Source of the DNA: a virus
Strand: one strand, 5' to 3'
IMG/VR virus record: IMGVR_UViG_3300031521_000088
Coordinates: 1-53,818 of that record
DNA length: 53,818 bases
This document shows positions 5,075 to 18,402 of this stretch, piece after piece. The position numbers and the translations under genes are program-made. The notes under the pieces are model-generated. The model was given only the letters and a program-made list of their open reading frames with translations, had not been told where the DNA came from and searched no databases. How positions within the stretch are numbered: the stretch's first letter is position 1; the number at the start of each line of letters is the position of its first letter.

Positions 5075-5148
5075 ACCGACTGTTTTCCCTGTAAACTACG
5101 TCCTGCTTTCGCAAGACGGGTGGGGATCGAACCCAACCGTTTGTCAGT
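5075..5148 (-). ncRNA. Permuted tRNA-like module (YrlA-type mimic)
   Basis: In transcript order: stem strand ACTGAC; T-arm with loop TTCGATC; a hairpin-closed acceptor-like stem GTCTTGC-GAAA-GCAGGAC; a GTA linker; D-arm GTTT-ACAGGGA-AAAC; and stem strand GTCGGT, which pairs with the first strand (6 bp, one G.U). This is a tRNA fold with 3' half before 5' half and a GNRA loop in place of free ends, as in YrlA Y RNAs. I could not find its Ro-binding stem. Confidence 0.6.
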
Positions 5149-6389: not shown

Positions 6390-6460
6390 TGCGAGTACGG
6401 AGGATCGAACTCCGACGACCTGCTTGGAAGGCAGGGATGCAGCCATAACATCTCACTCGC
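6390..6460 (-). tRNA. tRNA-Gly(TCC)
   Basis: Acceptor GCGAGTG/TACTCGC, anticodon stem CCTGC/GCAGG with loop CTTCCAA, T-arm CGGAG TTCGATC CTCCG, discriminator A. Flanked on both sides by Y RNA-like elements. Confidence 0.93.
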
Positions 6461-6480
6461 ATAAACATAGCTGGGTAAAA

Positions 6481-6596
6481 AGCGGACTAAGTGTTTTTTA
6501 AATCGCCTCCACGGCGACCCGGCATGAATTGTGCCGGGTGATTGAATCGAACAATCTGATTTCCTTTGAATGGGAAGTAACTCACTCCTAGCGCAT
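6481..6596 (-). ncRNA. Y RNA-like element 2 with permuted tRNA-like domain (YrlA-type)
   Basis: Terminal helix GGAGTGAGT/ACTTAGTCC (8 of 9 pairs), 5' flank GATGCGCTA, conserved GTTACTTCC, 3' flank GC then TTTTT. Within it: T-arm GATTG TTCGATT CAATC, acceptor-like stem ACCCGGC/GCCGGGT closed by a 9-base loop, D-arm CGCC-GTGGA-GGCG, and an AAAT/ATTT stem joining it to the helix. This is tRNA mimicry in permuted order, as published for YrlA RNAs that bind Ro60. Confidence 0.72.
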
Positions 6597-6631
6597 CAGC
6601 TATGCGTTGTCTCTATTTATTTGTAAGTCTA

Positions 6632-7802: not shown

Positions 7803-8209
7803 GTCTCGTCTTTCCATTCTGGATCAAGATACAGGATTGCACTCAAGAGGCGTTCTGGTGAATCACCAAGTAGTCCAATACCTGTGTTGCAATTTGAGCA
7901 GAGCAATCCTCTGACTGCTCCGGTGGAATGATTGTGGTCGATGTGCGGTGACCACATCTTGCGATTGCAAATAGCACAGCGATTGTTCTGGCTCTCAATG
8001 AGTTCATTGAACTCTCCTGCCTTGAGTCCATACCGTGCAGCTTTCTCTGATGTTGTGCAACGCCATCTCTTGTTATCTGAACGAAGCCTAATCTTTGTGT
8101 GCCCGCAGATTATGCAATGCGCTGTTCGTGCGCCTGTGTCAACTTTAGTGAGGATGTGAAGGGAGGGAACCGAAGTCCCCTCCCCTACAATCACTTGAGC
8201 CAAGGCCAC
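7799..8209 (-). CDS. Endonuclease VII-like HNH protein (start uncertain)
   Basis: The C-terminal core CAICNRKMWSPHIDHNHSTGAVRGLLCSNCNTGIGLLGDSPERLL is a clear recombination endonuclease VII/HNH domain with two CxxC pairs and the DH-N catalytic set. An N-terminal CIICGHTK knuckle precedes it. The longest frame starts with GTG at 8209, inside the Ro60 gene end, and would run through a strong UUCG hairpin at 8161-8184; the GTG at 8194 is an alternative. The real start is unclear. Probably a homing-type gene. Confidence 0.8.
   Translation of the reverse strand: MALAQVIVGEGTSVPSLHILTKVDTGARTAHCIICGHTKIRLRSDNKRWRCTTSEKAARYGLKAGEFNELIESQNNRCAICNRKMWSPHIDHNHSTGAVRGLLCSNCNTGIGLLGDSPERLLSAILYLDPEWKDET
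8161..8184 (-). terminator. UUCG-loop hairpin after Ro60 gene
   Basis: A 10-bp stem (GGGAGGGGAC/GTTCCCTCCC, one G.U) capped by TTCG, a few bases after the Ro60 stop. A similar hairpin follows the ssDNA-binding protein gene (32463-32486). No long T-run follows. Confidence 0.6.
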
Positions 8210-9702
8210 TTTTCAGTGACACCCGCAGTGATCAAATCGATGTAGCCGAAGCTTGCATCGCTCAAACCACCCTGAGTGTACACATTGGACTGGTTGGATG
8301 CCGCCGCAGCGTATCCACCCAAGTTCCAAACAAATACGGGCACATTGCTTGGGACAGGTGCGAACACTCGTCCACCATTGTGCTGTTCGTCAGTCAATAC
8401 AACGACACGGTCGAAACCAGCCTTGTACCAACGAGCGACAGCAGCGTCAAGCGAGGTCCATCCACCGCAGTTCGGAATAGCCTTCTTGATTTCGAGGGCC
8501 GAAGCCTTCTTGTCAAAGTTAACTTGTCCCGAGCTACCGTCGAACCAGACCAAAGTTGCATCGTTGGCGCGAGAAGCGAGGACACCAGCAAACAATGCCG
8601 CAGCATCGTAGCGAGAAACCTCAGACTGAGCGGACAACTTAGCTCCCATGGAACCAGACACGTCAACGAGGATCAAGGTCTTACCCTTGAGAGCAGGAAC
8701 GTTGCTTGCGCTAGCGTTCAATGCGTCATCAATAGCAAGCTTGAAAACGTTGTTGCCGCCGATTGCGTTATACGCAGACCAGAAGCGGAATGGAAGTTGC
8801 TTGGACTTTGCTACCTCAAGAGGATCAGCAATCTTAGCTGCGACTGCGTTGAGAACCTTACGGTCCACACCAGCCTCAACAAAGTTGCGGAGGTTCTTGA
8901 GCAAAGCCATGTAGCCCATGGTTGGGATAACTGCTTCCCATGCTGCCGCGTCCATCTTGGTCTTGCTCGAAAGCTGTTCCCAAGTTGCACCCTTGATGTT
9001 GTCAAGGTCAAGGTCAGCAGTCTTGAACTCAGAGTTCGACTTAACGAACTTCAAAGCCTCAGGGACAGCAACCTTAGCGTTGTAACGACGATCAAGTGCG
9101 TGCTTGAACAAAACAGACTGGATTGCAGTCTTTGGTAGTGGGTGGGTCAACTGGATAACGTCAGCGAAACGAACAGCCTTGCTGTCAGAGTCATACTTGA
9201 CGAGAGAACGCTCAGTGTAAAGGTTCTGTGCAGCATCAGCGATACCACGCTTTACGGACTGAGGAATGCGACGACCATAGTTGGCGTGCCAGTAAGCAAC
9301 TGCCTCAGCAGGCTCATCGGCACGATCCATTGCAGCCGCAACGATTGCACGTCCACCAGTGATCTTTGCATCATTCAAGACCTTTGCAGCATCAAGAGCG
9401 ATGGAAAGAGAAACCGAACGCATGTTTGCGGTGTGGCGAAGCCAGAACACGAAGTCCTGAATCCACTTGGCATCTTCAACAGCGACGGTCTTTACGAGAC
9501 CACGGATGCGAGAAGCAGTCGTAGCTGCCTTCTCATAGAAGTTGTCTTCAACAAGCGAGCTAACGCCTGCAAGGAACAACTCGGACTTTGGGGTACGGAC
9601 GAAACCGATACCACCCTCGGCAGTGCGAACTGCCACATTGGTGTTTTGGATTACACCAGAACCACGCGCAACCGATACAGTTGCGCCATTGTACTTGGAC
9701 AT
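8191..9702 (-). CDS. rsr: Ro60/Rsr orthologue, TROVE plus vWA domain (503 aa)
   Basis: N-terminal two-thirds is a helical TROVE-type repeat region (FVFWLRHTANMRSVSLSIALDAA...YWHANYGRRIPQSVKRGIADA...LDRRYNAKVAVPEALKF), the ring that binds Y RNA and misfolded RNA. The C-terminus is a vWA domain with an intact MIDAS (ILVDVSGSMG, then TSLDA and LTDEQ). Length matches bacterial Rsr. Start at ATG 9702 (MSKYNGATVSVARGSGV) with AAAGGGG seven bases upstream. In Deinococcus the Y RNA tethers Ro60 to polynucleotide phosphorylase. Here Y RNA-like elements lie on both sides, which supports a working ribonucleoprotein. Confidence 0.92.
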   Translation of the reverse strand: MSKYNGATVSVARGSGVIQNTNVAVRTAEGGIGFVRTPKSELFLAGVSSLVEDNFYEKAATTASRIRGLVKTVAVEDAKWIQDFVFWLRHTANMRSVSLSIALDAAKVLNDAKITGGRAIVAAAMDRADEPAEAVAYWHANYGRRIPQSVKRGIADAAQNLYTERSLVKYDSDSKAVRFADVIQLTHPLPKTAIQSVLFKHALDRRYNAKVAVPEALKFVKSNSEFKTADLDLDNIKGATWEQLSSKTKMDAAAWEAVIPTMGYMALLKNLRNFVEAGVDRKVLNAVAAKIADPLEVAKSKQLPFRFWSAYNAIGGNNVFKLAIDDALNASASNVPALKGKTLILVDVSGSMGAKLSAQSEVSRYDAAALFAGVLASRANDATLVWFDGSSGQVNFDKKASALEIKKAIPNCGGWTSLDAAVARWYKAGFDRVVVLTDEQHNGGRVFAPVPSNVPVFVWNLGGYAAAASNQSNVYTQGGLSDASFGYIDLITAGVTEKWPWLK

Positions 9703-9769
9703 AAAAGTCCCCTTTCGTGAATACATCGAATGGTTAAATGAGCAGGTTTCTACTCATAAGAAGAGCATA

Positions 9770-9985: not shown

Positions 9986-10002
9986 TGTTTTCCTTTCGTA
10001 GA

Positions 10003-10071
10003 AGTCCCTGCGAGAGTCGAACTCGCTATGAACAGGGTTGCAATCTGCTTCCAGACCGTCTGGACAGGGAC
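10003..10071 (-). tRNA. tRNA-Cys(GCA)
   Basis: Acceptor GTCCCTG/CAGGGAC with discriminator T (typical of Cys), very strong D-arm CCAGA/TCTGG, anticodon loop TTGCAAC, T-arm GCGAG TTCGACT CTCGC. One A.C mismatch next to the anticodon loop. Confidence 0.88.
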
Positions 10072-10097
10072 CACGGCGAACTTGCGTTCGCTTTAAA

Positions 10098-11331: not shown

Positions 11332-11414
11332 CGGAAGAAGGAGGAATCGAACCCCAACGTGTTACCGTCCAACATGGTTCCAGCATGTGTTGTTCCCAGA
11401 ACAAATCGTCTTCC
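11332..11414 (-). tRNA. tRNA-Ser(GGA)
   Basis: Class II tRNA: acceptor GGAAGA/TCTTCC, D-arm TTGTT/AACAA, anticodon stem ACATG/CATGT with loop CTGGAAC, long variable region, T-loop TTCGATT, discriminator G. One T-stem mismatch. Confidence 0.82.
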
Positions 11415-11524: not shown

Positions 11525-11606
11525 GGAGAGCAGAGAACACGATTCCCAGTGCTTACGCACCCATCTGTTTTCGAAGCAGCGCCTGTACCTTACAGGTTTA
11601 CTCTCC
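11525..11606 (-). ncRNA. Structured non-coding stretch
   Basis: GGAGAG/CTCTCC can close an 80-base domain holding two strong hairpins, CCTGTA-AGG-TACAGG and GTGC-GTAA-GCAC (GNRA loop). No ORF. Lies between tRNA-Ser and the Y RNA-like element at 11629 and may belong with it. The rest of 11415-11524 shows only a TGCGCTAGGG motif also seen in Y RNA-like flanks. Confidence 0.4.
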
Positions 11607-11628
11607 ATAATACGCCAGTGAAAGAATC

Positions 11629-11680
11629 GGAATAGGTGGTTTCGCTTTTGGATGAAAGAAGTAACCCATTCCTGCGCATC
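11629..11680 (-). ncRNA. Y RNA-like element 3 (short)
   Basis: Terminal helix GGAATGGGT/ACCTATTCC (9 of 9 pairs), preceded by GATGCGCA and followed inside by GTTACTTC, as in the elements at 6293, 6481 and 14624. Base pairs differ from the others in a compensatory way and the G.U at position 6 is kept. The interior is only 26 bases with a TTTC/GAAA stem. Confidence 0.6.
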
Positions 11681-11700
11681 TAGCGTATCTAACAATCATA

Positions 11701-12813
11701 TCACATGACCATGCGATCTTCTCTGGCTGGTCCCCATGCCTTCAACCTAATCGGCTTACCGAATGTGTCAAGTGGGAATAGCCCATCGTGAGTCATGAAT
11801 CCATCAAAGACATCCAAGTGCCCGACTGCCAATGAATCAACATCGGTCATATCAATAGCCCATTGAATAGTCTCTACATCGTGCGGAGCAATCCTGAACT
11901 CACCAGCCATACTGGATTCAGTAGTATTATGAGGTTCGTCGGGAGTGAACCCAATCTCTCCCTCATGAGGTAGCGGTCCTGCACCGTGCCTAGTTGCGTA
12001 GGAGCGAAGGCAACCGGTTGTGTGTACATCTGTTACCCCTGCCTCACGCAAGATTGCCCTAGCGTTAGATGGTGTAGTCGTAGACCATGTGGTGTAAGGG
12101 TTGAACCCGAAGTTCTCATCAAGGACGAATCCCTGTGCCCCCTCGAATACCGTATGACCATGCCTCAACTCTTCAAACAGATCAACAGTAGTGACAACAT
12201 TGAAATGGTTAAACATTGGAAGCATTGACCACACCAACGACTGCATCTTGGAATCCTTGAGGTTGGGATGATCAGGAATGATCATACCGTCACTGATGTA
12301 GAAGTCCCTGAGGGCCAGCATCTTTGGGTATACCGCGCTGAATCCAAGCTTGAAGTCTTCTGCTCGCAGTGCAAGCTCTGGGAACCTCAGGGAGTAATCA
12401 ATGGTCTCGCCAAAGCCATTCCCAGTTGTTCCATGGTTGTCCTTGCCGCGTGCTTCCTCACGAATAACATTGACCAAGACGTGAAGAGCAGTGGTGACAA
12501 GAGCCTTACCGTCCACATTCAAGACAGGATTGAATCCCTTCTTGATGAGTGCGGACTTCTCATTGAAGATGTTTACGGGGTTGATCGTGCAGTAGGAACT
12601 AATCCAAGTAGGAACTCCTGACATCGTACCCGAGCCATAGCTGGCAAAGGTGTGGTGAATTCCCTTAGCGATCACATTATGGGCAGCTTGCTGTCCACCA
12701 TTGAACCTGACAACACGATCAGCATTGGAATGAGCAACGAGGGCATCGACTGTTGCGCCTTTACCCTCGTCACCCCATCCAAGACCTACAACGATATCAG
12801 CGGAGGGCTGCAC
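11701..12813 (-). CDS. purA: Adenylosuccinate synthetase-like protein (about 370 aa)
   Basis: Would join IMP and aspartate using GTP, the first step towards AMP. GLGWGDEGKGATVD is the PurA P-loop with the catalytic Asp kept; FNGGQQAAHNV is a variant of the GGHNAGH site; RSYATRHGAGPLPHEG matches the IMP/Asp region; the C-terminus is GPAREDR. The shorter length resembles archaeal-type and phage PurZ enzymes more than E. coli PurA. PurZ makes a 2-aminoadenine precursor and usually lacks the Asp seen here, so PurA activity is the better guess. Start uncertain (GTG 12813, overlapping the vWA gene by 17 bases). Confidence 0.85.
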   Translation of the reverse strand: MQPSADIVVGLGWGDEGKGATVDALVAHSNADRVVRFNGGQQAAHNVIAKGIHHTFASYGSGTMSGVPTWISSYCTINPVNIFNEKSALIKKGFNPVLNVDGKALVTTALHVLVNVIREEARGKDNHGTTGNGFGETIDYSLRFPELALRAEDFKLGFSAVYPKMLALRDFYISDGMIIPDHPNLKDSKMQSLVWSMLPMFNHFNVVTTVDLFEELRHGHTVFEGAQGFVLDENFGFNPYTTWSTTTPSNARAILREAGVTDVHTTGCLRSYATRHGAGPLPHEGEIGFTPDEPHNTTESSMAGEFRIAPHDVETIQWAIDMTDVDSLAVGHLDVFDGFMTHDGLFPLDTFGKPIRLKAWGPAREDRMVM

Positions 12814-13735
12814 TCTTCGTACCCGAGCGCTTGACAATGGCATCCGTAACACGGACTGCGATTGCGTTTCCGACAGTTGCGGACAGATCAGCCTTGATGT
12901 CATCAATGCTACGACCAAGATCGTAAGCGAAGAGACCGGCGATCATCTCAGGAATTGCCGAGACATCCTGAACGATAACCACATTGTCAGGTCCGAAGAG
13001 ATTTCCGTAGAACTCTTCCGAACGCTGGTACTTGGCTGCGGAGTTGTTGATCAGGAGGATTGTGACATCCCACTTCTCTGTAGCTGCCGCTGCGATACCC
13101 TCGAAGGACAGGTCACCGAGAGGCTGCTCACCGATGTACTTCTCGATGTGTGCGGCTGTAATCGGAATCTGCTTCTCATCAGCGATGAGGTAGACCTTGC
13201 CCTTGACACCACGCTTGTCGAAAGCGTCAGTGCGGGTGTGGTATGCGAGGTAGTAGAACAACAGGTTGGAGGTCTCTCCACTGTTTCCACCACCATGACC
13301 CTCAAGGAACAGAACGTCCAGCGCCTCATCGATCTTGATACCAGATTCGAACTGGCTCATCTGCAACGGAACACGCTCATCATTCGCAGCGTCACCGTAA
13401 GCGGCAACTGCGATCTGAACGTCCTCAACGCCCTTTGCAGTGGTCAGATCGAAGACAGTGTTGAGCTTCTTCTGCATCTCACCGGGAATCGAACCCATGG
13501 AGCCGGTCTGGTCAAAACCAATGACCATCGGCTTCGTGAAGGGATGCTCCACGGTGTCAAGGGACTCACGAATGTTCTCGCCAGCCTTGTTGAGCTTCTT
13601 TACGTCAACAAGCTCATGTGCCTCATAGCGACCAGTAGCCTTGACGGTCCTGTCGTATGCGAATGCACTTCCTGTTGCGGCTCGCGTTGCGCTCACTGCG
13701 CTGTAGGCCGCTGCCGACCAACTTCCACCACCCAT
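12797..13735 (-). CDS. vWA-domain protein, TerY-like (312 aa)
   Basis: ATG at 13735 with AAGGAG upstream. After a 65-residue N-terminal region comes a vWA fold with MIDAS VIGFDQTGSMGSIPGE, a Gly-rich EGHGGGNSGETSN metal-loop region and VYLIADEKQIPIT. Such proteins bind metal and partner proteins. It is directly coupled to a J-domain/kinase-like protein, recalling the TerY/kinase/phosphatase sets; no phosphatase is visible. Role in the phage unknown. Confidence 0.8.
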   Translation of the reverse strand: MGGGSWSAAAYSAVSATRAATGSAFAYDRTVKATGRYEAHELVDVKKLNKAGENIRESLDTVEHPFTKPMVIGFDQTGSMGSIPGEMQKKLNTVFDLTTAKGVEDVQIAVAAYGDAANDERVPLQMSQFESGIKIDEALDVLFLEGHGGGNSGETSNLLFYYLAYHTRTDAFDKRGVKGKVYLIADEKQIPITAAHIEKYIGEQPLGDLSFEGIAAAATEKWDVTILLINNSAAKYQRSEEFYGNLFGPDNVVIVQDVSAIPEMIAGLFAYDLGRSIDDIKADLSATVGNAIAVRVTDAIVKRSGTKSAALR

Positions 13736-14580: not shown

Positions 14581-14623
14581 AGTGATCCTTCGTCGTGGTG
14601 GAAGTTAAGAGCTAGAGAAAAGG

Positions 14624-14720
14624 GCGACCTAAGTGTTTACTGTCGGAATCGAACCGACTTTATCTCATTCATTATATGGGTGGCCCGCCATGGGCCGAAG
14701 TAACTCAAGTCTATCGCATC
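14624..14720 (-). ncRNA. Y RNA-like element 4 with T-arm
   Basis: Terminal helix GACTTGAGT/ACTTAGGTC (9 pairs with two G.U), 5' flank GATGCGATA, 3' flank GCCC then TTTT, conserved GTTACTTC strand. Inside: GGCCC/GGGCC hairpin, CCCAT/ATGAG partial stem and a T-arm GTCGG TTCGATT CCGAC in ordinary tRNA order. It does not make a valid tRNA acceptor. It follows tRNA-Leu(GAG) by eight bases. Confidence 0.6.
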
Positions 14721-14728
14721 TAGCTCAG

Positions 14729-14801
14729 TGCGTCTGACGGGGGTCGAACCCGTGCTGTACACGTCCTCAACGTGTTTCCTCTGCCTTTGGGATACAGACG
14801 C
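14729..14801 (-). tRNA. tRNA-Leu(GAG), class I
   Basis: Acceptor GCGTCTG/CAGACGC, D-arm TCC/GGA, anticodon stem ACACG/CGTGT with loop TTGAGGA, T-arm ACGGG TTCGACC CCCGT, discriminator A. The variable loop is only five bases, unlike normal bacterial leucine tRNAs. Confidence 0.88.
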
Positions 14802-14905
14802 ATTGATTGGGAGAGTCAGAAAGACAGATTTGAAAGTGTGGTATCTAAGCTTCGTGTACACTCAGCTTCGACCTGCAAAATCTTATAGTGTCAAGCACTT
14901 CCCAG

Positions 14906-14979
14906 TAGTCCATATGGGAGTCGAACCCACAACCTCTAGAACCTAAATCTAGCGCCTCTGCCAATTGGGCTAATGGACC
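14906..14979 (-). tRNA. tRNA-Leu(TAG), class I
   Basis: Acceptor GGTCCAT/ATGGACT, anticodon stem CTAGA/TCTAG with loop TTTAGGT, T-arm GTGGG TTCGACT CCCAT (one mismatch), discriminator A, five-base variable loop. The permuted tRNA-like module at 14984 begins four bases upstream of its 5' end. Confidence 0.88.
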
Positions 14980-14983
14980 ATTA

Positions 14984-15062
14984 AGGAGTACTTTTCCACT
15001 AAGCTAATGTACACTCAACTAAATGGCCGCATACATACCGGATTCGAACCGGTGACTCTCCT
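14984..15062 (-). ncRNA. Permuted tRNA-like module B of a tandem pair
   Basis: Order in transcript: AGGAG, AGTC, T-arm ACCGG TTCGAAT CCGGT, ATGTATG, 16-base loop, TGTACAT, TA, D-arm GCTT-AGTGGAA-AAGT, A, CTCCT. ATGTATG/TGTACAT gives a 7-bp acceptor-like stem and AGGAG/CTCCT a 5-bp anticodon-like stem, with correct linker lengths. Read as a normal tRNA (with the D-arm at 15072-15086) neither stem pairs. Confidence 0.65.
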
Positions 15063-15065
15063 GTT

Positions 15066-15140
15066 GAAGACGTTCTTCCGCTGAACTATCGACTTGCCTT
15101 GTGAGCCTGACGAATGGGATTCGAACCCATGACTTTCTTC
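15066..15140 (-). ncRNA. Permuted tRNA-like module A of a tandem pair
   Basis: Order: GAAGA, AAGTC, T-arm ATGGG TTCGAAT CCCAT, an imperfect hairpin-closed stem (TCG/CGA and GCT/GGC with mismatches between), TA, D-arm GTTC-AGCGGAA-GAAC, G, TCTTC. GAAGA/TCTTC forms the anticodon-like stem. It starts two bases after the 3' end of tRNA-Val and is followed by AAC and module B. Confidence 0.6.
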
Positions 15141-17943: not shown

Positions 17944-18055
17944 GTTAGGGATTGCTCAGCTAGTCGTCACCCAAGTCGTAAGCTTTATTGCACTCCCCCG
18001 CTTCGTCTCTCATCTGACGGACTTGGGGCAAACCCACCATGAGACTCTGCGTTTG

Positions 18056-18402
18056 TGGACCATGCGGGAGTCGAACCCGCGTCCAAATATGTTCCAGCTA
18101 AACAGTTATACGGCCATTGTAATACGGGGTAGCTTCCGCCACACTCCACCAGTCCATTTAGGTTGGACAACCTTTTACTGCACCTTAGACATTTGATTGA
18201 CTAGGGCTGCCTTTACCCTTGGCTTGTCAGACGAGCGCTAGCTGGTCCGCACCGGAGAGTACTGACTCAATGAATGCGTCAACACCCTTCATAGCCTCTG
18301 TTACCTCATCGGTAGCATTTATTTGTTTGACCACTTTATAGAATGTGATCCGTTTCTGGCCGCTATTTAGATTTTCCATACCTGTCAAAACCGGGATGGC
18401 CC
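18056..18402 (-). ncRNA. ssrA: tmRNA (transfer-messenger RNA)
   Basis: The 5' end GGGCCAT pairs with 3' ATGGTCC, giving a 7-bp acceptor with the G3.U70 pair that marks alanine charging. The 5' part continues with CCCGGTTTTGACAGG, like the tmRNA D-loop, and the 3' part has T-arm GCGGG TTCGACT CCCGC and discriminator A. In between, a reading frame starting at GCT encodes ATDEVT...DQLALV followed by TGA (29 codons). From memory, a mycobacteriophage tmRNA tag also begins ATD and ends ALV. About 347 nt, normal for tmRNA. It would rescue stalled ribosomes with a phage-specific tag. Confidence 0.85.

Follow-up and report, generated by a model that had tools for sequence, protein, structure and literature searches.

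Organization of the locus

The DNA analyzed here (the window) is a virus record of 53,818 bases, whose minus strand holds all 26 tRNAs and the tmRNA called by ARAGORN. Two tandem units lie between tRNA-Val and tRNA-Leu (Table 1), each ordered as anticodon-stem 3' strand, T-arm, acceptor 3' strand, loop, acceptor 5' strand, UA, D-arm and anticodon-stem 5' strand, i.e. as a permuted tRNA-like module (TLM). This order and the positions coincide with those of an earlier, sequence-only reading of the locus, which had placed the units two and four bases from the flanking tRNAs; we find 1-2 nt between tRNA-Val and unit 1, depending on the caller, and 4 nt between unit 2 and tRNA-Leu, with 3 nt separating the units. 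A sigma-70 promoter scan for the tandem gave one match, versus a shuffle mean of 1.2, and such a promoter was discarded.

The contig also encodes a Ro60 protein, which shares 46% identity with the Ro-like protein of Arthrobacter phage Atuin and has matches in 103 phage records; its gene is 5 kb from the tandem and not adjacent to it. The phage-encoded tmRNA (18055-18402, minus) carries its own tag peptide. A likely tRNA-Cys (GCA) at 10002-10073 and a likely tRNA-Ser (GGA) at 11333-11414, both on the minus strand and with very short D-loops, were recognized by eye; ARAGORN misses both and they give weak tRNA-Sec matches.

Table 1. Features of the window discussed in the text.
Feature	Position	Strand	Basis or remark
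TLM unit 1	15140-15066	minus	without Ro60-binding module
TLM unit 2	15062-14984	minus	without Ro60-binding module
tRNA-Val(tac), upstream neighbour	15213-15142	minus	ARAGORN; Rfam 60.3 bits
tRNA-Leu(tag), downstream neighbour	14979-14905	minus	ARAGORN; Rfam 58.3 bits
Ro60/Rsr (TROVE-domain) protein	8191-9726	minus	Pfam TROVE E 1.5e-15
Third TLM-like module; Ro60-binding stem apparently absent	5076-5147	minus	R1 28.3 bits; R2 positions 34-123 only, 24.7 bits
Predicted Y RNA, Ro60-binding module and degenerate TLM	6459-6609	minus	R2 49.4 bits, full length
Predicted Ro60-binding-module RNA, short body, no TLM	11604-11692	minus	R2 42.7 bits, model 1-155, TLM deleted
Predicted Ro60-binding-module RNA, hairpin and T-arm body	14601-14732	minus	R2 32.1 bits, model 1-155
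Candidate small RNA, GGTCGAAG motif and 6-bp closing stem	14822-14880	minus	read from sequence

Stems, core nucleotides and folding of the two units

On the minus strand, unit 1 reads GAAGA-AAGTC-ATGGG.TTCGAAT.CCCAT-TCGTCAG-loop-AAGTCGA-TA-GTTC.AGCGGAA.GAAC-G-TCTTC, and unit 2 reads AGGAG-AGTC-ACCGG.TTCGAAT.CCGGT-ATGTATG-loop-TGTACAT-TA-GCTT.AGTGGAA.AAGT-A-CTCCT. The anticodon-type stems, GAAGA/TCTTC and AGGAG/CTCCT, have 5/5 Watson-Crick pairs, in agreement with the exact pairing previously claimed for them, and the T-arms and D-arms are fully paired in both units, with a single G-U in the D-arm of unit 2. Exact pairing had also been attributed to ATGTATG/TGTACAT, but this acceptor-like stem of unit 2 contains five Watson-Crick and two G-U among its 7/7 pairs. 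In unit 1 the acceptor-like stem, on which no pairing claim had been made, is weak (4/7), and the total for this unit (18/21 pairs) is the same as the lowest value among 106 other TLMs. The linkers do have tRNA lengths, as had been stated, with a correction for unit 2, the variable loop of which has 4 nt. In both units the tRNA core is complete (U8, A9, A14, R15, G18-G19, Y48, T54-T55, C56, A58), although U8-A9 and the T-loop were scan criteria and are weak evidence taken alone. As encoded, neither unit has an anticodon loop or a free acceptor end.

All 18 possible permuted pairs are present in the minimum-energy fold of unit 1. That of unit 2 contains 48% of its permuted pairs, retaining the anticodon-type stem and the T-arm, and an alternative acceptor/D region is favoured by 8.3 kcal/mol over the permuted fold. 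For the 162-nt stretch the best fold has -41.7 kcal/mol, versus -25.9 kcal/mol when only the pairs of the two permuted cloverleaves are allowed, and fold energies are unremarkable with respect to shuffles (z -0.71 and -1.79 for the units, -1.36 for the whole stretch). The 106 other TLMs vary likewise (at least 80% of the permuted pairs are retained in 65 and less than 60% in 20) and energy folding leaves out the tertiary elbow, so the predicted fold preferences of unit 2 and of the 162-nt stretch are not decisive.

The absence of a normal tRNA fold, also part of the sequence-only reading, was confirmed: ARAGORN calls no tRNA within the tandem, and the best normal reading (15037-15088) reaches 24.7 bits, under the Rfam cut-off of 29, and an ordinary tRNA was consequently discarded. 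A normal tRNA fold of better energy, one of two observations that had been named as counting against the permuted modules, was not found, while the better fold that unit 2 does have is not of tRNA type.

Relationship with YrlA and the Y RNAs of other phages

Bacterial YrlA is described as consisting of two modules, a Ro60-holding stem and a tRNA-like part, the latter being a substrate of DusA and TruB and a binder of PNPase, according to a review (PMC8394870). The comparison with YrlA RNAs drawn in the sequence-only reading proved sound: the Rfam YrlA model (RF02553) aligns to unit 1 only, over its tRNA-like part (model positions 23-86 of 114), Ro60 is encoded 5 kb away, and the same module is found in 71/87 Ro60 loci (see below). 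The match to unit 1 scores 21.8 bits against a gathering cut-off of 69 (E 0.099 in a stretch of 1,451 bases, 3.7 in the whole window); with this model the phage relatives are also below the cut-off (BRock 32.8 and 32.4, Myrna 40.3, Jay2Jay 39.8, Paradiddles 34.8 bits).

Two covariance models were built, one of the TLM alone (R1, 36 modules) and one of the full Y RNA (R2, 31 sequences), neither with any sequence from the window. The modules of R1 (alignment A5) were retained from 50, several rows of which were misaligned in the acceptor; the 31 full-length sequences of R2 (alignment A4) were hand-picked. The window's species and near-duplicates were excluded. With R1, unit 1 scored 52.5 bits (E 1.8e-14) and unit 2 40.5 bits (E 1.1e-10), the E-values of both models being rough because calibration was shortened. 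The next-best matches in the window had 28.3 bits (5076-5147) and 23.4 bits (real-tRNA junction).

The survey covered stretches of 9 named phages and the best 80 of 263 virus contigs, two of which belong to the window's own species; the records include duplicates (e.g. L017/L043, L089/L090, L099/L101, L055/L255). A TLM of at least 52 bits in R1 was present in 71 of the 87 Ro60 loci from other phages. A cruder scanner located the module in 47 of the 80 virus contigs, 33 being without a match, and the pairing scanner gave 44 TLMs in 39/80 actinobacterial Ro60 loci. In the 31 aligned Y RNAs an outer and an inner stem surround the TLM, with changes on both sides at 7/7 pairs in each and 95% and 88% of the cells paired, respectively; pairing of these stems was not a selection criterion. 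As judged from the aligned sequences, the RNAs of the relatives are of Y RNA architecture, with a Ro60-type stem and a tRNA-like module, and the outer stem would be the Ro60 binder, a role carried over from the YrlA literature. Compensatory changes in the permuted stems, which the sequence-only reading had proposed to look for in homologues, are seen at the level of the family in all four helices of the other modules (A5), those in the D-arm being limited to one pair in one sequence; this covariation is biased, since the scanner through which the modules were obtained itself selects for pairing.

Dozens of phage loci in the survey thus combine Ro60 with Y RNAs, and some of these RNAs have been given tRNA annotations. 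TLMs overlap the annotated tRNA-Arg of VanLee (L019 19741-19810), tRNA-Pro of Frankenweenie (L020 19800-19870), tRNA-Asp of Myrna (L191 3188-3256), tRNA-Arg of GiJojo (L015 9835-9903) and tRNA-Ser of LuckySocke (L017 10776-10844). Bacillus jumbo phage G has a full-length Y RNA match of 83 bits (L192 687-858), about 3 kb from a TROVE match of 20.9 bits, which is under the family cut-off.

Comparison with junctions of real tRNA genes

A control with pairs of tRNAs made use of 671 tRNA calls from 88 sources (the window and the 87 Ro60 loci). A permuted anticodon stem with 5/5 Watson-Crick pairs arose in 77 of 15,740 ordered tRNA pairs and in three of 614 adjacent pairs, and in none of the 614 adjacent pairs did it coincide with a 7/7 acceptor. 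In the pairing scan of the same 88 sources, with 191 adjacent tRNA pairs within 60 nt, unit 1 scored 21.5 and unit 2 22.8; 11 junctions of real neighbouring tRNAs pass the threshold of 19.5, and the best of them, at 21.3, is surpassed by unit 1 only narrowly. Model R1 gave real-tRNA junctions in the loci up to 47 bits, e.g. tRNA-Ala/tRNA-Lys of GiJojo; both units are outscored by one such junction in phage Myrna, between real tRNA-Lys genes, which has 56.6 bits. The bit score as sole proof was dropped on account of this junction, and the case therefore rests on the orphan halves and the two exact anticodon-type stems. The outer neighbours of both units are complete tRNAs, and for this reason the units of the window are not tRNA junctions.

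The missing Ro60-binding stem

Model R2 covers only positions 45-117 of 155 on unit 1 and 45-118 on unit 2 (the latter seen in the sister contigs described below). In the 87 loci, by contrast, R1 scores 52 bits or more 81 times, and every one of these hits sits within a full-length R2 match, that is, within a Ro60-type stem; the 52-bit cut corresponds to the score of unit 1 and leaves unit 2 below it, and part of the 81 hits were used to build the models. A model-free flank test, in which the 50 nt upstream were paired against the 50 nt downstream, gave median z values of -2.44 among phage TLMs (n = 62) and -2.67 among bacterial TLMs (n = 44), versus +0.57 for unit 1 and +1.98 for unit 2. Three real-tRNA junctions resembled the units (z 0.3, -0.4 and 0.6). 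Of the 106 TLMs, 11 had z > -1; the seven with z > -0.8 keep the Ro motif by eye. The fraction of shuffles pairing as well as the real flanks was 0 to 0.10 in 11/11 chosen Y RNAs and 0.675 for unit 1, 0.96 for unit 2 and 0.425 for the whole tandem. Jay2Jay and Paradiddles, at first sight TLMs without Ro module (R2 positions 33-123), were rejected as such: each has a divergent stem, with shuffle fractions of 0.015 in Jay2Jay, where R2 misses the stem, and 0.10 in Paradiddles. The claim that there is no room for a Ro-binding stem was confirmed: R2 recognizes just the TLM part and the flanks are not complementary. The absent Ro60 module is what sets the tandem apart.

Among 68 orphan hits in the pairing scan, 49 have a 5' Ro motif by pattern. 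The other 19, inspected by eye, comprise the two units of the window, six with a variant motif, nine with the motif inside an arm, which constitute another Y RNA body, and two chance-like hits (L071 minus, L075 20392). In another five motif-less hits the T-arm is also that of a real tRNA and, by eye, no TLM-like D-arm is present, and scanner hits in L056 and L075 (12406) were excluded as false or of another body type. Nine of the 87 loci (L028, L039, L051, L056, L057, L080, L081, L098, L100) have no full-length R2 match of at least 75 bits; a missing well-formed Y RNA is therefore not unique to the window, while the Ro-less tandem is.

Other putative Ro60-related RNAs in the contig

The third TLM-like module (5076-5147) folds alone as a permuted cloverleaf (z -2.83) and has no flank complementarity (shuffle fraction 0.98). 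The fold around the predicted Y RNA 6459-6609 (6455-6615) has z -3.29, and R1 gives only 13.9 bits within it, at 6500-6562. For the two predicted RNAs with other bodies, z is -2.68 (11604-11692) and -2.86 (14601-14732), the latter lying about 250 nt downstream of the tandem. The ARAGORN 'tRNA-Ile(aat)' (14633-14705, minus), which falls inside 14601-14732, is not matched by the Rfam tRNA model at E values up to 5 and is probably a false tRNA call. The candidate RNA 14822-14880, located between two tRNA-Leu genes, folds weakly (-9.0 kcal/mol) and the surrounding sequence (14801-14968) reaches only 10.5 bits in R2; it is possibly a further small Ro60 RNA. According to the models, the contig is one in which Ro60-module RNAs have no intact TLM and the better TLMs have no Ro60 module.

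Distribution of the tandem

Only one phage species was found to carry the tandem; it is represented by the window and two sister contigs, and the three are near-identical, with 9-10 differences in 20.8 kb and no variation in the tandem region. Seven differences between the window and the two sister contigs fall at every third base of 12839-12857, recoding seven codons of ORF 12797-13735 and leaving the protein unchanged. There was no second species with the tandem among the 87 Ro60 loci (genome stretches), and in 80 terminase-related loci (also genome stretches) it appeared only in contigs of the window's own species, L102 and L105; in L103, L104 and L106, with an identical terminase, the sequence ends before the tandem region. 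The remaining R1 hits in the terminase-related loci (six in one scan) were discarded as junctions of real tRNA genes. Single queries with the neighbouring 277-aa protein and with Ro60 returned, as homologues with the tandem, only two contigs of the same species, and blastn with the whole region merely short tRNA-sized matches among the 60 records listed out of 179. R1 searches of whole records comprised 19 and 10 records, with stretches of Jay2Jay, Paradiddles, Karimac, StarPlatinum, Myrna and phage G examined further. The nearest named phages are Streptomyces phages (Karimac, terminase 51.8%; Paradiddles, DnaE 47.8%), both filed under Stanwilliamsviridae. No report of a Ro-less tandem was found among openly licensed papers.

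Interpretation and alternative explanations

The reading we favour, to which we assign a probability of roughly 0.55, is that the tandem consists of two free-standing YrlA-type TLMs, split from the Ro60-binding stem and set in a tRNA operon. The free tandem tRNA-mimic RNA put forward in the sequence-only reading is thus the preferred interpretation, because the comparison with YrlA was right and there is no room for a Ro60 stem. The data suggest that the units are free-standing tRNA decoys rather than working tRNAs, and we infer that the tandem would be functional rather than a relic.

That the units are instead decaying Y RNAs (or a single one, duplicated) which have lost their Ro60 stems and have no present function is improbable, although it deserves serious attention: the acceptor-like stem of unit 1 has 4/7 pairs, unit 2 has an alternative fold, independent conservation is lacking, and the Y RNA at 6459-6609 of the same contig has a degenerate TLM too. 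Against decay, anticodon-type stems, T-arms and D-arms are paired and the core nucleotides intact in both units, yet the Ro60 stem is gone, and if decay were random, preservation of mainly the tRNA-like part in both units would be unexpected. Relics are also generally untypical of compact phage tRNA arrays. It is quite unlikely that recombination in the array left halves of former tRNAs in scrambled order, with no link to Y RNAs. The modules are indeed built of ordinary tRNA halves, real junctions reach 56.6 bits in R1 and behave alike in the flank test; nevertheless, 5/5 Watson-Crick pairs occur in just 77/15,740 ordered pairs and here twice in succession, and the same permuted module exists within Y RNAs of Ro60-encoding relatives. 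The halves of one duplicated tRNA would also pair, a case to which the count of 77/15,740 is blind.

Two further explanations have very little probability. One is that of true circularly permuted tRNA genes matured via a circular RNA, the second option raised in the sequence-only reading, which did not hold up. It would account for the order of 3' half, intervening sequence and 5' half, with a type II-like junction in the anticodon region, and the intervening 11 and 16 nt are within a range of at least 7-31 bp listed for algal genes (PMC3978253). However, position 33 is A in both units if the 5-bp stem is kept (TCTTC followed by AA, CTCCT followed by TA), instead of U33; flanks of 1-4 nt leave no bulge-helix-bulge (BHB) motif and there is no flank duplex; and the acceptor of unit 1 is weak (4/7), that of unit 2 having 7/7 with two G-U. 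A sister contig, moreover, has a tRNA-Gln pair about 1 kb past the edge of the window, so that glutamine, at least, has its tRNA; the sequences searched contained no recognized tRNA-Arg. The other is that the tandem has kept its Ro60 binding as a functional Y RNA, via sequences past the neighbouring tRNAs or an unrecognized stem. Three predicted Ro60-module RNAs in the same contig, one of them about 250 nt downstream, and the failure of R2 to detect divergent Ro60 stems such as that of Jay2Jay lend it something, but complete tRNAs fill both flanks, and the 50-nt flanks are uncomplementary (0.675, 0.96 and, for the tandem, 0.425, versus 0 to 0.10 in 11/11 Y RNAs).

If the tandem is made of free-standing TLMs, as we favour, it is probably released by tRNA processing: RNase Z-type maturation of the tRNA-Val 3' end and RNase P cleavage at the tRNA-Leu 5' end would excise an RNA of about 162 nt, containing two TLMs and having neither an anticodon loop nor a free acceptor end. 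With less certainty, this RNA might act in trans as a tRNA mimic occupying tRNA-elbow-binding enzymes. The tRNA-like domain of Salmonella YrlA was reported to be uncut by an anticodon nuclease, and that it could be a competitive inhibitor was suggested (PMC7790460). By analogy, the most plausible role would be to divert host anticodon nucleases, as a decoy that they cannot cleave and that accompanies the many tRNAs of the phage, and a free TLM in a tRNA-rich phage would fit such a role. Rather speculatively, the functions of a Y RNA could have been split in this contig between TLM-less Ro60-binding RNAs and a tandem tRNA mimic, independent of Ro60 and released by tRNA processing, that would be an uncleavable decoy of anticodon nucleases or of further enzymes that bind the tRNA elbow. 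If true, a natural RNA with the TLM only, and doubled, would allow the function of the tRNA-like part to be tested apart from Ro60, and the tandem would be a new type of element in the tRNA-centred conflict between phage and host.

Comparison with known systems

With phage tRNA arrays the tandem has in common its genomic position, the strand and its ordinary tRNA neighbours, but as encoded its units lack the anticodon loop and the free acceptor end. In algal and archaeal permuted tRNA genes, of which a 2014 review counts 34, from six algae and one archaeon and linked to BHB motifs (PMC3978253), the 3' half likewise precedes the 5' half and the split is in the anticodon region; unlike them, the units of the window have neither the BHB motif nor U33, and the acceptor of unit 1 is weak. 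Ten named Ro60 phages (Atuin, pSt2308, GiJojo, BRock, LuckySocke, VanLee, Frankenweenie, Kradal, Jay2Jay and Myrna) have the same TLM according to R1 and, like the phage of the window, bear tRNAs and encode Ro60; theirs, however, has a flanking Ro60-type stem (as deduced from full-length R2 matches for nine and from the flank duplex for Jay2Jay), with one TLM per RNA. From YrlA the units differ by the absence of a Ro60-binding basal stem, by being in tandem, 3 nt apart, by their location 1-4 nt from tRNA genes and 5 kb from Ro60, and by the score of unit 1 under the Rfam cut-off. They share with it the permuted T-arm, the acceptor-like stem-loop, U8-A9 and the D-arm, with closure where a tRNA has its anticodon stem, and the association of the family with Ro60, the gene for which is also present in the contig of the window.
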